NCBI RefSeq assembly: GCF_035975855.1
Contig: NZ_CP109055.1
Location: forward strand, 9,548,001-9,612,000
Length of the DNA stretch: 64,000 nucleotides
Origin: Streptomyces sp. NBC_01304
Lineage (GTDB): Bacteria; Actinomycetota; Actinomycetes; Streptomycetales; Streptomycetaceae
Reading direction: 5' to 3'
The notes below the pieces were generated by a model that worked only from the letters and a program-made list of their open reading frames with translations, was not told the DNA's origin and ran no database searches. Shown one piece after another: positions 14,443 through 20,473 of the stretch; the first letter of the stretch is position 1, and each line of letters begins with the position of its first letter. Both the position numbers and the translations under genes were made by a program.

Positions 14443-14723
14443 TCAGGGATTGGTGGTGACTTCGAAGCCCGCGCCGTAGACGTCAGCGGTGTCGGCGGCG
14501 TCGCGGGCTCGCAAGTCGGCGAGGATATTGGCCGAGCTGGTGTAGACGTAGGGCGGCAGGCCGAGGATGCGCGCCTTGGTGATGCCGGCCCAGGGCCCTT
14601 CTGCCTGGAAGCCGTTGGCCTCGGCCGGGTAGGGGGTTCCGGGCACGTGCCAGATGGTCGGGCCGCCGGAGTCGCCGGCCTCGTGAGGGGCGTGGGACTG
14701 GTAAATGCTTCCCAATCTGGAAG

Positions 14724-15923: not shown

Positions 15924-15965
15924 GCTCCATCAGGTCGTGCTTGCAGTGCGTACCACGGACGACCT

Positions 15966-16094
15966 CGCCGGCATTGCTCTACACAGCGACACATTCGCAC
16001 TTCCCAATCGGCGGCCGAGTCGTCGTGGGGAGACGGGAGGCAAAGCATTGGAAGCCACGAACGGCAGCCGCCTGAAAGCCACACCCGTCTCCCC
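15966..16094 (-). ncRNA. Bridge RNA of the IS116-like element
   Basis: Read on the transposase strand, the region gives two loops in the order known for IS110 bridge RNAs. The target-binding loop is closed by an 11-bp perfect stem (16084-16094 with 16027-16037). It holds a left guide TCAGGC (16075-16070), which pairs with the left target with one G-T wobble, and a right guide AATGCTT (16049-16043) complementary to the target AAGCATT. The donor-binding loop (stem 15966-15970 with 16009-16013) holds GATTGGGAAG (16009-16000), identical to the element's right end (14717-14708), and GTAGAGC (15982-15976), complementary to its left end (16141-16147). Exact RNA ends are not known. Confidence 0.8.
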
Positions 16095-16749
16095 TGGGTG
16101 CCCTCACCCTACGAACGGGAGGACCTTCCCGGACAAAAAGGTAGAGCCGCTTGAGTTGTTCGTGATGCGGCCGTACCAGACGCCCAACTGGCCAGAAACT
16201 ACAAGCTCGTTGTTGTCGAAGAGACCGGCGCCCAGCAGGCGCTCGTCGGCGCGTGCGGGGCTCAGGGCGATCGGGCTGGGCTGTTCGCCGGGGACTTCCA
16301 GCTGTCCGGTCTGTTTGAGGGTCGGCCCCTGCGACGAGGGCGTGATGTCCGAGACCAGTTCAATAACCATGTAGTCCTTGGTCGGGTGTCCAGTCATCGA
16401 GCCCTCGGGGCTCTTGAAGTACCGCACGTACCCGATCGGGCCGAATGCGAAGTCCCGTCGGTCATAGACGGGGTAGCTGTTGTCGTGGATCTTGCGATCG
16501 GCGATCGGACCGCCCCCACAGTGGCCCGCCGAGATGGCGATGTTCCGCCCGTAGTCGTCCGTGCCCACCGCGCCAATCGTGCAGAAGGCGTCTGGGTTGG
16601 ACGGATCGGCTATCTGCATGGCGTTGTGGACGCGCTTGACCGCCTCGGCCCCGTCCTGGGCCTGGGCGATTCCGGCGCCGGTGCCCAGTGACGCGCTGGC
16701 GGCGAGGCTGGCCACGTACGATGACTGGCACTGACTGGGTCCCGCCCGT

Positions 16750-17124
16750 CTACGGCACCGTTGCCGTCGTGGAAGCCGTCCTCGACGCTTGAGCGGCCCG
16801 GGTGGGGTGGGCATGGCTGTCGTCGGCGCTGGACGGCTCGTGCTTGGCGAGTACCACCAGGGCGCGGACGGTCAGGCCGGCTTCGGCGGGGTGTCGCAGT
16901 GGTCGGTCAAGGTGGAGCGTGTACTGGTTGCGGCGTCCGGTGCGTTGCCGGTGTAGATAGCCAGCCTGCTCGAGGTCGACGACGATGGCCTGCACGGTGC
17001 GCTCGGAGATCTCGCAGCGGGCGGCGATGGTGCGCAGTCGTATGTTTGGGTCGCGGGCGATGGCCAGCAGTACCCGGGCGTGGCTGGTCAGGAACGTCCA
17101 CCGCTGGCCCTGGCGGTCATTCAT
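16750..17124 (-). CDS. Winged-helix/MarR-like transcriptional regulator
   Basis: The protein of about 124 residues begins MNDRQGQRWTFLTSHARVLL and contains a helix-turn-helix/wing (LRTIAARCEISERTVQAIVV, then LEQAGYLHRQRTGRRNQYTL). It belongs to a set of small Streptomyces DNA-binding proteins of unknown ligand. A truncated relative lies at 35706-35939. I placed the start at ATG 17124; an upstream ATG at 17151 is possible. The tail after residue 95 is low complexity and may have been altered by rearrangement next to the protease relic. Confidence 0.75.
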   Translation of the reverse strand: MNDRQGQRWTFLTSHARVLLAIARDPNIRLRTIAARCEISERTVQAIVVDLEQAGYLHRQRTGRRNQYTLHLDRPLRHPAEAGLTVRALVVLAKHEPSSADDSHAHPTRAAQASRTASTTATVP

Positions 17125-17788: not shown

Positions 17789-18427
17789 ATGACTGAGATG
17801 CTGACGCCGACTCCCGATGACGCTTTCGAGATGCTGCTGGACGGCAACCAGCGGTTCGTCACCGGCTCGTTGGAGCACCCCAACCAGGACGCAGCACGCC
17901 GCACCGAGACCGCACCGGCTCAGAGTCCCTTCGCGGTAATGTTCGGGTGCTCCGATTCCCGGCTGGCCGCCGAGATCATCTTCGACCGGGGGCTGGGGGA
18001 TTTGTTCGTGGTCCGTACGGCCGGGCATGTGGCCGGTTCGGAGGTGCTGGGCAGCATCGAGTACGGGGTGAGCGTGCTGGACTGCCCGCTGGTCGTGGTT
18101 CTGGGCCATGACTCGTGCGGGGCCATAGCGGCAGCCAAGGACGCCGCCGACGGCGGCCAGGTGCCCACCGGCTTCGTCCGTGACGTGGTCGAGCGGGTGA
18201 CCCCGAGTGTGCTGGCGGCCCGCGCCGCCGGACGCGGCCGGGACGAGGAGATCCTGGCCGAGCACATTCGGCAAACCGTGGATCTGCTATTGGAGCGCTC
18301 CCGGGGCCTGGCCGAGAAGGTGGCCGCCGGCCGCCTCGCCGTGGTGGGCCTGTCTTATCGGCTCGCCGACGGCAGCGCCCAGGTGGTGGCCTCCCACGGC
18401 CTGAGCAGGGCTGCTGCCTCGGCATAG
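17789..18427 (+). CDS. Beta-class carbonic anhydrase
   Basis: The 212-residue protein is a beta-carbonic anhydrase, which interconverts CO2 and bicarbonate using zinc. The zinc ligands are visible as Cys54 with the Asp56-Arg58 dyad (GCSDSR), His107 and Cys110 (LGHDSCGA). The family sequence DLFVVRTAGHVAGSEVLGSIEYG is conserved. The start is the ATG at 17789; frames extending upstream have no ribosome site. It appears cytoplasmic and complete, and is followed 111 bases later by the Sua5-type gene on the same strand. Confidence 0.95.
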   Translation: MTEMLTPTPDDAFEMLLDGNQRFVTGSLEHPNQDAARRTETAPAQSPFAVMFGCSDSRLAAEIIFDRGLGDLFVVRTAGHVAGSEVLGSIEYGVSVLDCPLVVVLGHDSCGAIAAAKDAADGGQVPTGFVRDVVERVTPSVLAARAAGRGRDEEILAEHIRQTVDLLLERSRGLAEKVAAGRLAVVGLSYRLADGSAQVVASHGLSRAAASA

Positions 18428-18538
18428 TCGTACCCGCTGTGGGCCTGTCCGCCGGTGGTACGGGCGGGCCCGCGCGATGCCTCGGCCTTGGCTCGTCGTT
18501 ATGCACCGACGAGACCAACGGAAGATGGAGAGCAGACA

Positions 18539-19534
18539 GTGAAAGGGATCACGAGGGTGACGGCACAAACCACGGACATCAATACGGCGGCCGGTGTGCT
18601 GCGCGCCGGGGGCCTGGTGGCCGTTCCGACCGAAACTGTCTACGGGCTGGGTGCCAATGTCGAGGATGCTGCCGCCGTCGCGCGCGTCTTCCAGGTCAAG
18701 GGGCGCCCTCCTTCCCACCCGCTGATCGTCCATATTGGTGGCGCGGAGCAGTTGGTCGACTGGGCCGAGGATGTGTCCGAGGCGGCGCGCCTGCTGGCCG
18801 AACACTTCTGGCCGGGGCCCCTCACGCTGGTCCTGCGGCGCAGTCGCCGGGTACCCCTCGAAGTGACGGGTGGCCTTCAGACGGTGGCCGTGCGCGTGCC
18901 TGACCACCCCATCGCGCTCGCGCTGCTGGCGGGCTTTGGCGGCGGGATCGCGGCCCCATCTGCCAACCGCTTCGGCTCGGTCAGCCCCACCACCGCGCAC
19001 CATGTCCGTACGGAACTCGGTCCCGGGGTCGACTTCGTGCTGGACGGCGGGCCCTGCGAGGTCGGTGTCGAGTCGACCATCGTCGATGCCACAGGCGAGA
19101 TCCCGACCATTCTTCGGCCCGGCGGGGTGACGTGCGAGGACCTCGAGGCGGTGCTGGGGCGCCCGTTGGGAGTCGACTCGACCAGCCGCGTCCGAGTGCC
19201 GGGCCAGCATCCCTCTCACTACGCACCGCGTGCACGGGTTATCCTCGTCGAGCCCGAGAACGTCATCGCTGAGGCAGAGCTCGCGCTGGAACGCGGGCAC
19301 CAGACGGGCGTCTTCCTTCCCCCCTCCCTCGCCGACGTCCCGGTGAAGGCGCACGCCGTGGTGACGGTCCCCTCTTCGATGGCCGCCTACGCGCGCGAGC
19401 TGTACGGGTTCCTGCGCGACCTCGACCAGCAAGGGTGCGACCTCATCGTCGCCTCCCTGCCGCCAGAGCAAGGGCTGGGCCTCGCCATCGCCAACCGGCT
19501 CCGCCGCGCCGCCGGGCCCCGGCCCTCCCACTGA
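18539..19534 (+). CDS. Sua5/YrdC-type L-threonylcarbamoyladenylate synthase
   Basis: The 331-residue protein has an N-terminal YrdC domain (VPTETVYGLGANVED, FWPGPLTLVLRRS, PSANRFGSVSPTTA, GVESTIVD) and a C-terminal Sua5 domain joined by GQHPSHYAPRARV. It makes threonylcarbamoyl-AMP for the t6A modification of tRNA; Streptomyces usually has a shorter YrdC copy elsewhere, so this may be a second, accessory copy. The GTG at 18539 has GGAGAG upstream; a GTG at 18557 is an alternative. It is codirectional with the carbonic anhydrase and ends just before the IS3 relic. Confidence 0.9.
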   Translation: MKGITRVTAQTTDINTAAGVLRAGGLVAVPTETVYGLGANVEDAAAVARVFQVKGRPPSHPLIVHIGGAEQLVDWAEDVSEAARLLAEHFWPGPLTLVLRRSRRVPLEVTGGLQTVAVRVPDHPIALALLAGFGGGIAAPSANRFGSVSPTTAHHVRTELGPGVDFVLDGGPCEVGVESTIVDATGEIPTILRPGGVTCEDLEAVLGRPLGVDSTSRVRVPGQHPSHYAPRARVILVEPENVIAEAELALERGHQTGVFLPPSLADVPVKAHAVVTVPSSMAAYARELYGFLRDLDQQGCDLIVASLPPEQGLGLAIANRLRRAAGPRPSH

Positions 19535-19599
19535 CCCCACTACTGAACCAGCCATGGCGTGAGCTTGTTCCGCTTTGACGGACACGATTGGTGTGGTGG

Positions 19600-20473
19600 T
19601 CAGGCCGCGAGTGTGGTCTCGTAGTCGGCGGGGCTGCGGTAGTCGAGGCTGCTGTGCAGTCGGTGCAGGTTGTACCAGCCCTCGATGAATTCGAAGATCG
19701 CGGTGCGGGCGGCTGCCCGGCTTTGCCAGGCAGTGCTGTCGAGCAACTGCAACTCCCGTTTGATGGTGGCGAAGAACGACTCGGCGAGTGCGTGGTCCCA
19801 GCACTGACCGGCGCGACCGACCGAGAGCCGGATGCCGAACTCGGCGGCCAGAGCAGCGAATTGCTGACTGGTGTACTGACAACCACGATCCGAATGGAAG
19901 ACACTCCATGGGCGGGGCGACGCTGCTGGCAGGCCGTCTTGAGGGTGTCGACGACCAGACTCGCGCGGTGGTGGTCGGCCATCGCGTAGCCGACGACCTC
20001 GCGGGTGGCCAGGTCCAGCCAGCAGGCGAGGGAGAGCCAGCCCTCGACCGTCGGGAGGTGATGTCACCGACCAGTTTGGTGCCGGGAGTGTCAGCGTGGA
20101 AGTCGCGGCCGATCAGGTCCGGGGCCGGGCGGGCCCTTTTGTCCGGCCGGGTCAGCGAGCGCCGGTGGCGGCGATGGGCACCCTGAATACCGTGCTCACG
20201 CATGATCCGCTCGACACGTTTGCGGTTGATCCGCCGTCCCAGGCGCCGCAGTTCGGCATGGATGCGCGGGACCCCGTAGGTCCTGCGTGAAGCTATGTGC
20301 AGGACGGCGATCTCGTGCGCGAGGGCGCTGTCGGCCGCATTCTTCGCGGCGCGGGCCTTCGCCGCCGAGCGCCAGGCGTAGAACGAAGAGCGGGCCTCGT
20401 TCAGCAGCCGGCACAGGAAAGCAACATCATGGGTGGTCTTCTCCGCCTCGGTGAACGCGTATATCGCGCTCAC
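19600..20473 (-). pseudogene. IS3 orfB (integrase-like transposase) with two frameshifts
   Basis: The frame is normal from MSAIYAFTEAEKTTHDVAFL to TPGTKLVGDIT, where about four bases are missing near 20065 (TACCTC reduced to TC). It runs in a second frame through MADHHRASLVVDTLKTACQQ, loses another base near 19910, and continues in a third frame (PWSVFHSDRGCQYTSQQF to DYETTLAA). All three parts of the DDE core are recognisable (GDIT; HSDRG; LAESFFATIKREL). The element needs help in trans to move. Confidence 0.85.

Follow-up and report, generated by a model that had tools for sequence, protein, structure and literature searches.

An insertion sequence of the IS110 family lies within a protease-like gene of Streptomyces sp. 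NBC_01304, and the question raised by this locus is how the element came to that site. A sequence-only reading of the window (the whole 64,000-nucleotide stretch that was analysed, positions 9,548,001 to 9,612,000 of contig NZ_CP109055.1) had answered that the element carries a bridge RNA (bRNA) with guides for its own donor ends and for the disrupted target, and that these guides explain the insertion into the protease gene. Judged from the sequences of the element and its relatives, we consider it very probable that this is an IS110-family insertion sequence whose 5' leader encodes a bridge RNA reading both the target and the joined ends of the element.

The element and the interrupted gene

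The features of the locus are collected in Table 1. The transposase has the DEDD/RuvC domain and the serine-bearing C-terminal domain that mark the IS110 family, as matched by PF01548, PF02371 and NF033542, and it scores 221.6 bits against the last of these ('IS110 family RNA-guided transposase'), for which the cut-off is 140. In the layout of the element, 222 nt separate the core from the coding sequence, and about 15 nt lie beyond the end of the coding sequence. There is one copy in the genome; eight other transposase matches are 27–52% identical, and five of these span less than half of the protein.

Table 1. Positions of the features of the element and its insertion site, numbered within the window.
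Feature	Position	Strand	Evidence
Transposase, IS110-family DEDD/serine recombinase, 399 aa	14724..15923	-	PF01548 (1e-49), PF02371 (2.6e-21), NF033542
Core dinucleotide GC, left junction	16146..16147	-	left junctions of relatives; protease homologues
Core dinucleotide GC, right junction	14707..14708	-	right junctions of relatives
Left target TCAAGCG	16148..16154	-	pairing with left target guide, including one G.U
Right target, ATT paired with right target guide, then TA unpaired	14702..14706	-	
Interrupted protease-like gene, 5' part	16148..16814	-	12 uninterrupted homologues; weak NF051463 match, below cut-off
Interrupted protease-like gene, 3' part, with GDSGGP motif	14443..14708	-	uninterrupted homologues
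Conserved bRNA: 5' stem-loop, target-binding loop, donor-binding loop	15949..16139	-	88-sequence alignment, structure counts, covariance model
Closing stem of target-binding loop, 5' arm	16084..16094	-	structure counts
Closing stem of target-binding loop, 3' arm	16027..16037	-	helix 4: 97.6% of cells paired; both-side changes in 6 of 11 pairs
Left target guide (LTG) TCAGGCGGC, 7 nt plus core	16067..16075	-	all 9 nt pair in 61/82 insertions, at least 8 in 71/82, wobble allowed
Right target guide (RTG) AATGC	16045..16049	-	core plus 3 nt paired here; about core plus 5 in relatives
Handshake guide TT of target-binding loop, pairs with donor AA (14710-14709)	16043..16044	-	pairing counts in relatives
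Left donor guide (LDG) GATTGGGAAG(U)	15999..16009	-	LD/LDG identity per position 0.86-1.00 outside core; some letters fixed by search expressions
Right donor guide (RDG) GTAGAGC, pairs with left-end GC-TCTAC	15976..15982	-	7/7 in 100/104 elements; anchor fixed 3/7 letters
Donor-binding loop stem, 5' side	16012..16024	-	structure counts
Donor-binding loop stem, 3' side	15958..15972	-	helix 7: 98.9% paired; columns 141-197 CG 63 / UA 25
-35-like box TTGACT, right end, overlapping transposase stop codon	14722..14727	-	TTGACN in 80/82, TTGATT in 1, none found in 1
-10-like TACCTT, left end, 17 nt from -35 across circle junction	16138..16143	-	spacing in the window counted by hand

A search of 295 genomes of the genus with the N-terminal part of the protease gave 13 positives, the window's own genome included, and the gene was uninterrupted in all 12 homologues outside that genome. 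In each of the 12, a single glycine codon separates the two stretches that border the element here (junction INDEPENDENTLY). The empty site is therefore TCAAGCGGCATT, read TCA AGC GGC ATT and divided as TCAAGCG-GC-ATT, which agrees with the requirement for a GC core. The earlier insertion point, between TCAAGC and ATT, is excluded by this codon, and the AAGCATT that had been taken as the target is the right-hand product junction, AA-GC-ATT, and not the original target. A Pfam search found no match for the 5' part of the interrupted gene; the GDSGGP motif of its 3' part is presumably that of a trypsin-like protease.

Guides in the leader

The leader holds two stem-loops with internal guide loops, which is the arrangement of a bridge RNA. 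The 11-bp stem that the sequence-only reading had described is present, as is the loop holding TCAGGC that it closes, and in the next loop GATTGGGAAG at 16009–16000 is identical to the right end at 14717–14708, and GTAGAGC at 15982–15976 is the complement of the left end at 16147–16141. Other details had to be redrawn. The conserved RNA runs from about 16139 to 15949 rather than from 16148 to 15966. TCAGGC does pair with the left target through one G.U, but the true LTG is the 9-nt TCAGGCGGC, which pairs with TCAAGCGGC across 9 nt, one of them a G.U; in the wider alignment of TTCAGGCGGC opposite CTCAAGCGGC, the last nine positions are paired with that one G.U. On the right, GCATTGG stands opposite GCATTTA, giving five pairs and then a mismatch. 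The AATGCTT that had been read as a guide to the target divides in two, AATGC pairing with the target GCATT, but TT with the AA of the donor end; because TT is the handshake guide, the heptamer as a whole is complementary to AA-GC-ATT, the product junction.

The leader was shuffled 4000 times with its dinucleotides preserved; a 9-nt LTG arose in 258 of these shuffles, a 5-nt RTG in 396, a 9-nt LDG in 3 and a 7-nt RDG in 18, and all four guides jointly, with wobble allowed for the LTG, arose in none. The single-sequence fold of the 225 nt was not significant (z = -0.21; 80 of 200 shuffles were equally or more stable), so that support for the structure comes from the relatives, and no Rfam family was found in the window at gathering scores.

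The guides, the core, the structure, the promoter boxes at the junction and the target site can be read from the sequences, and RNA production, binding and strand exchange would follow the published work on IS621. On that analogy, the first loop (LTG TCAGGCGGC, RTG AATGC) would read both target strands around the GC core, and the second (LDG GATTGGGAAG, RDG GTAGAGC) would read the joined ends of the element. Circular excision would join the -35 box of the right end to the -10 box of the left end and switch the RNA on; the recombinase and the RNA would then insert the circle at the core, the donor strand being received by the 2-nt handshake guide.

Insertion sites of relatives

We searched 150 genomes of the family and found a match at E <= 1e-100 in 52. 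Named genomes contributed 219 loci, of which the best 80 were kept, and 60 further places from the search were added; the 179 sequences gave 171 transposase hits past the filter, 141 with an RDG recognisable by an anchor and 30 without. From the 141, we retained 82 unique insertions with both ends, after removing the window duplicate (1), loci without a right end (25), repeat insertions (16), loci without a left flank (11), loci without an LTG or RTG by the anchor (2), and loci in which the LTG was not 10 nt (4). As a second set, 29 of the 30 loci without an anchored RDG were examined, and 27 were readable through end motifs set by hand.

Across the 82 insertions, the LTG matched its own left target with an identity of 0.87–0.91 over 7 nt and of 0.94 and 0.93 at the core, and the RTG matched its own right target at 0.96 and 0.99 at the core and at 0.90, 0.77, 0.79, 0.78 and 0.61 over the next five positions. 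At the seven non-core positions of the left target, 6.15 were identical versus 3.85 after permutation, and at the five of the right target 3.85 versus 1.66 (0/5000 for each); when each distinct guide pair was counted once (n = 64), the values were 6.05 versus 3.60 on the left and 3.83 versus 1.58 on the right (0/5000), all of these permutations ignoring kinship among the elements. When the flank was slid by 1–3 nt, identity fell from 0.88 and 0.77 to 0.18–0.33. From the identity and the sliding results, the target consists of 7 nt, the 2-nt core and about 5 nt. The relatives carry 64 distinct LTG/RTG pairs, made up of 41 LTGs and 61 RTGs. The match of guides to their own flanks, together with the stem covariation described below, upholds the claim that donor and target guides occur in the order and polarity of IS110 elements. 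In four loci (L048, L082, L023 and L144) the left target is longer than the guide by one base, which could mean that a single bulge is tolerated.

A quite different account would take the leader as an ordinary structured 5' untranslated region, or a promoter or attenuator, the likeness between loops and flanks then arising from insertion at sites that resemble the element's ends, whether driven by homology or read by protein. Resemblance of IS110 targets to the circle junction has been noted for IS117 and IS900 (PMC1525189, in the part of that paper available), as such an account would have it, but the loops here vary with the flanks element by element, over the 64 pairs, and the donor ends comprise only a few types. 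Because the loops change with the flanks while the donor ends do not, a protein reader or end homology is inadequate, and we regard this account as extremely improbable.

Covariation of the RNA

Over 88 sequences, the 43 proposed pairs were formed in 89.5% of cells, versus 86.7 in shuffled alignments (0/500), with both-side changes in 155 cells versus 62.7 (0/500) and in 15 pairs versus 11.4 (2/500), and a covariation score of 0.139 versus 0.083 (0/500). The count of further pair types, 48 versus 45.0, was reached by 51 of the 500 shuffles. The most variable stem is that of the target loop, where columns 57–122 are CG in 25, UA in 24 and AU in 18. The 5' stem-loop is weak as drawn, helices 2 and 3 being paired in 43.8% and 55.7%, and RNAalifold proposes another drawing of it, in which both-side changes are more numerous. 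Taken together, the stem-loops covary across the alignment.

A covariance model scored the window RNA at 205.6 bits, the window itself being one of its rows, and found the RNA in all 28 further elements (E <= 7.4e-18): ten plasmid copies, L142, L150–L155 and 11 of the 22 outgroup loci. Two of the plasmid copies, L195 and L196, have an RNA that also occurs unchanged as a row of the model, and those of the other eight are 0.89–0.96 alike to a row; the remaining 18 elements are more distant from the model rows. In a search of the whole genome, the window RNA was the only match below E 0.3, and the eight other IS110-type loci of the genome gave the model no hit. Eight weak matches (E 0.00018–0.65) were mostly antisense to the same RNAs, and one lay in a protease control locus (E 0.65).

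Core, donor ends and putative junction promoter

The same dinucleotide stood at both junctions in 81 of the 82 insertions (GC 49, TC 21, GT 11), and in these 81 it was carried by the LTG in 75 and by the RTG in 79. L025 has a mixed core, with GT at the left junction and TC at the right; perhaps one of its ends was replaced, or two elements recombined.

In the donor loop, RD equalled the complement of the RDG at all seven letters in 100 of 104 anchored elements, which comprise five RD sequences. The match was 6.93 of 7 versus a permuted mean of 5.63 (largest 5.91), the anchor having fixed three of the seven letters and left four tested, the core among them. LD matched LDG at 8.70 of 10 versus 7.94 when permuted (largest 8.17), with some letters fixed by both search expressions. 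At the core, LDG identity was 0.76 for the first base and 0.15 for the second, mostly U opposite C and thus a U.G wobble; the LDG tracks the core in part only.

The two nucleotides that follow the RTG correspond to what Hiraizumi 2024 names handshake guides (PMC11208158, in the sections available). They pair with the donor bases left of the core in 79 of 82 insertions at P7 and in all 82 at P6, versus 11 of 82 at P7, and none at both bases, when set against their own target. Covariation is small (1.96 of 2 versus 1.85 permuted, largest 1.91), because 74 of the 82 share an identical TT/AA; all 27 insertions of the second set also pair, in the combinations TT/AA, AT/AT, GT/AC and GC/GC. For a handshake between the donor-binding loop and the target we found no support, with P7 pairing in only 22 of 82.

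The right end carries TTGACA in 74 of 82 insertions and near forms in all but one of the others. With the ends joined, a TAC, mostly followed by CT or GT, stands 17 nt (68) or 18 nt (12) from this -35 box in a total of 80 of 82; in the window, the box holds the stop codon of the transposase.

Recombinase residues and the core

The predicted fold of the transposase (mean pLDDT 84.1) best matched IS621 (8wt9, E 1.5e-12) and ISCro4 (9t56). Among 20 aligned transposases, D10, D61 and D106 were invariant and D103 nearly so. D61, an aspartate in all 20, takes the place of the catalytic E60 of IS621, and the core-contacting stretch E60-A61-T62-G63 of IS621 corresponds in the alignment to D61-M62-N63-G64. 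M62 and G64 thus align with A61 and G63, which contact the core or its guide in IS621 according to the available text of PMC11208158.

Mutual information with the core across 91 transposases whose core had been read was highest at M62 and C11. Position 62 was M in 44 of 44 transposases with a GC core and L in 34 of 34 with TC, and with GT it was V in 7, I in 5 and L in 1; position 11 was A in 34 of 34 TC transposases. On the transposase tree all TC rows have this A, and the one exception is a GT row, L118. At least three core changes occur on that tree, and core and clade are confounded. Predictions from these residues were made ahead for 29 further elements. Six of them (L150–L155) had TC as predicted, L142 had GC contrary to prediction, and the outgroup L157–L178, predicted to have GT, had TC wherever two ends could be read, in 20 of its 22 loci. 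Because the predictions failed for L142 and the outgroup, position 62 marks clades and is not a code, and with few core changes the association of position 11 with TC is a lead only.

Proposed targeting of gene boundaries

Target classes were assigned for 109 unique insertions (82 + 27). The left target begins with TCA, the opposite-strand TGA, in 46 (stop-type), and CAT, the opposite-strand ATG, is found no more than 10 nt from the core in 44 (start-type); TCA is one base off in 4, and neither signal occurs in 15. Elsewhere in the flanks, TCA at a fixed place has a background of 0.9% and CAT within 10 nt one of 6.2%. To call coding frames, each flank was taken separately and 240 nt of it were scored for freedom from stop codons and raised GC3. 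Among the 46 stop-type sites, the right flank was callable in 29, and in 21 of these the opposite strand is coding with a register that terminates at the TGA, where 1 in 6 is expected (p = 4.9e-11), confirming 16 guide pairs; among the 44 start-type sites, the left flank was callable in 35, and its coding register is that of the ATG in 28 (p = 3.2e-16), confirming 25 guides or targets. These p values take the insertions as independent, which is true of them as events but not as guides. At the off-by-one sites, the coding frame of the right flank misfits the TCA in 3 of 4. A Shine-Dalgarno match of at least 5 nt stands ahead of the ATG in 57% of the 44 start-type targets versus 6% of shuffles, and the target type changes at least seven times on the transposase tree.

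Annotation was compared for 10 of the 40 plasmid hits listed. It places a gene end at L196 and L201 and a gene start at L199 and L200; at L194 a hypothetical coding sequence spans the left junction. At L195, L197, L198, L202 and L203 no coding sequence abuts the core in the annotation, whose gene table is incomplete, so that this absence says little. L199 and L200 are much alike and probably represent one insertion. The outgroup loci (L157–L178, 50–54% identity) have a Shine-Dalgarno sequence and ATG on the opposite strand as their targets, and two to seven of them occur within single genomes.

These results suggest that most guides in the lineage are written for the start or stop signals of genes. 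We lean, with some confidence, towards a lineage of boundary specialists. Their guides would complement either TGA and the last codons or a Shine-Dalgarno sequence and ATG of an opposite-strand gene, such that one guide fits many genes. The right ends of stop-aimed elements would supply a new in-frame stop, leaving the host gene with nearly its whole product. The core would have switched among GC, TC and GT several times, followed by the core positions of the target guides and by the RDG (the LDG partly), and residues next to the catalytic site would have changed along with it. Boundary-aimed guides could make insertions mild.

It is also conceivable, if rather unlikely, that the bridge RNA is correctly described and the boundary pattern reflects survivorship, gene-internal insertions having been lost and the enrichment of TCA and CAT marking persistence. 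Only persisting insertions are sampled, and an insertion at a gene end should be mild; the guides, however, contain the stop or start triplet, and the register was confirmed for 16 stop guide pairs and for 25 start guides or targets. The RNA thus encodes the targeting, whichever process favoured it, and survivorship may well be the reason that such guides prevail.

A further proposal, that the left end rebuilds the Shine-Dalgarno sequence in start-aimed elements, was not established by swapped-end controls: a match of at least 4 nt was kept by start-aimed left ends in 84% of the 44 and by stop-aimed ends in the same places in 67%, and a match of at least 5 nt after insertion was seen with 18% versus 4%.

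The window copy belongs to the stop-type class by sequence, and its guide TCAGGCGGC is like the stop-type guides of relatives. Its site lies inside a gene on the transposase strand and not at a gene boundary, and so looks like an atypical, gene-internal insertion, likely accepted through the one G.U pair. The earlier claim that the guides explain the position in the protease gene holds for the pairing (a 9-nt LTG with one wobble and a 5-nt RTG), but the guide itself resembles those for stop codons. The genome has two sites with the guide sequence, neither of them in a stop-codon frame by the GC3 test.

An in-frame stop codon in the right end

Right ends with ATTAGGAA give TAA, in the register of the interrupted gene, where the TGA of the target had stood. 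This donor stop occurs in 40 of 46 stop-type and 2 of 44 start-type insertions (Fisher 1e-16), in 7 of the 15 others and in 3 of the 4 off-by-one sites; among register-confirmed insertions it occurs in 20 of 21 stop-type and 1 of 28 start-type. At L196 (NZ_CP109385.1), the annotated neighbouring coding sequence terminates on the TAA inside the end of the element, and at L201, whose right end is ATTGGGAA, the annotated coding sequence continues into the element. The right end of the window copy, also ATTGGGAA, has no in-frame stop, which places this copy among the six stop-type rows that lack one.

That stop-aimed guides go together with a right-end TTA could be an accident of shared descent, a lesser but serious possibility. 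The donor trait changes only three times on the transposase tree, and the independent-pairs test (six pairs, of which on average 1.1 agree, 0 disagree and 4.9 are silent) cannot reach significance; the tree classes count the four off-by-one TCA sites as stop-type, and 7 of 73 rows break the rule (five stop-aimed without and two start-aimed with a stop). Accident fits less well with the replacement of the gene's own TGA by TAA in those 20 of 21 register-confirmed insertions, and with the use of the donated TAA by an annotated gene at L196. The donor-stop rule is consistent, and its repeated evolution is not established.

Comparison with known systems

In the portions available of the IS621 reports (PMC11208160, PMC11208158), that element resembles ours in carrying the RNA in its left end with the target loop before the donor loop, in guides that include the core, LTG and LDG pairing with the bottom strand and RTG and RDG with the top strand, and in its recombinase fold; a handshake guide in the target-binding loop and a promoter formed at the circle junction are predicted for our element as well. 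The 399-aa recombinase of the window is 18–19% identical to its structure match. IS621 and its relatives have a CT core with an almost invariant second T that is read by G63, and GT, AT and TT also worked (PMC11208158, as far as its text is available); the 82 insertions here have GC in 49, TC in 21, GT in 11 and a mixed core in 1, and the GC and TC cores break with the IS621 pattern. The RDG of the window element, unlike that of IS621, is contiguous over 7 nt, and IS621 targets REP elements, whereas the targets of the window element's relatives look like gene boundaries.

ISCro4 (PDB 9t56) is alike in fold and in the sequence of the serine domain, and was compared by its recombinase alone. The seekRNA of ISEc21, of the IS110 type (Siddiquee 2024, PMC11187229, in the text available), needs its upstream non-coding region and has a circle and a junction promoter, features predicted for the window element as well; ISEc21 is shown by experiment, the window element is known from sequence, and lineage and target differ. 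Elements of the IS1111 group were considered and set aside, since their RNA lies in the downstream end and that of the window lies upstream.

We take IS110 and IS116 of Streptomyces to be elements of the same family that share the Pfam name. With IS117, listed among Streptomyces elements in the available part of PMC2194683, they are likened to the window element by host group, family and Pfam name, and not by sequence. IS116-like elements had been put forward as not yet described in this way. Among the full-text matches listed, a scope that lies outside subscription papers and supplements, no title concerned a bridge RNA of Streptomyces or of IS116/IS117, but the class itself is known: Durrant 2024 predicts bRNAs for 85.7% of catalogued IS110 elements (PMC11208160, in the available text).

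Programmable recombinases based on bridge RNAs are under development, and the one studied most performs best when its core ends in T. Natural recombinases with GC or TC cores, and with guides that can be read from sequence, would widen the range of usable sites, and the GC, TC and GT relatives would offer a ready-made natural set in which to map core specificity. If boundary targeting is true, it would be RNA-guided targeting of a general sequence signal, a start or a stop, and not of one locus; the choice of target would limit harm to the host, and the end of the element would repair the gene that it enters.

Other elements in the window

A second, distant IS110-family element (L005, with PF01548 and PF02371) lies at 111–1280 on the minus strand of the window, and the covariance model found no match there. 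Its kin L002 and L003 do not differ from each other over 1846 bp, and the identity between L005 and L002 is 81.5% across 1554 columns. The list of open reading frames also includes one of 728 aa at 18287–20473 on the minus strand, whose N-terminal start presumably resembles that of an IS3-type transposase.
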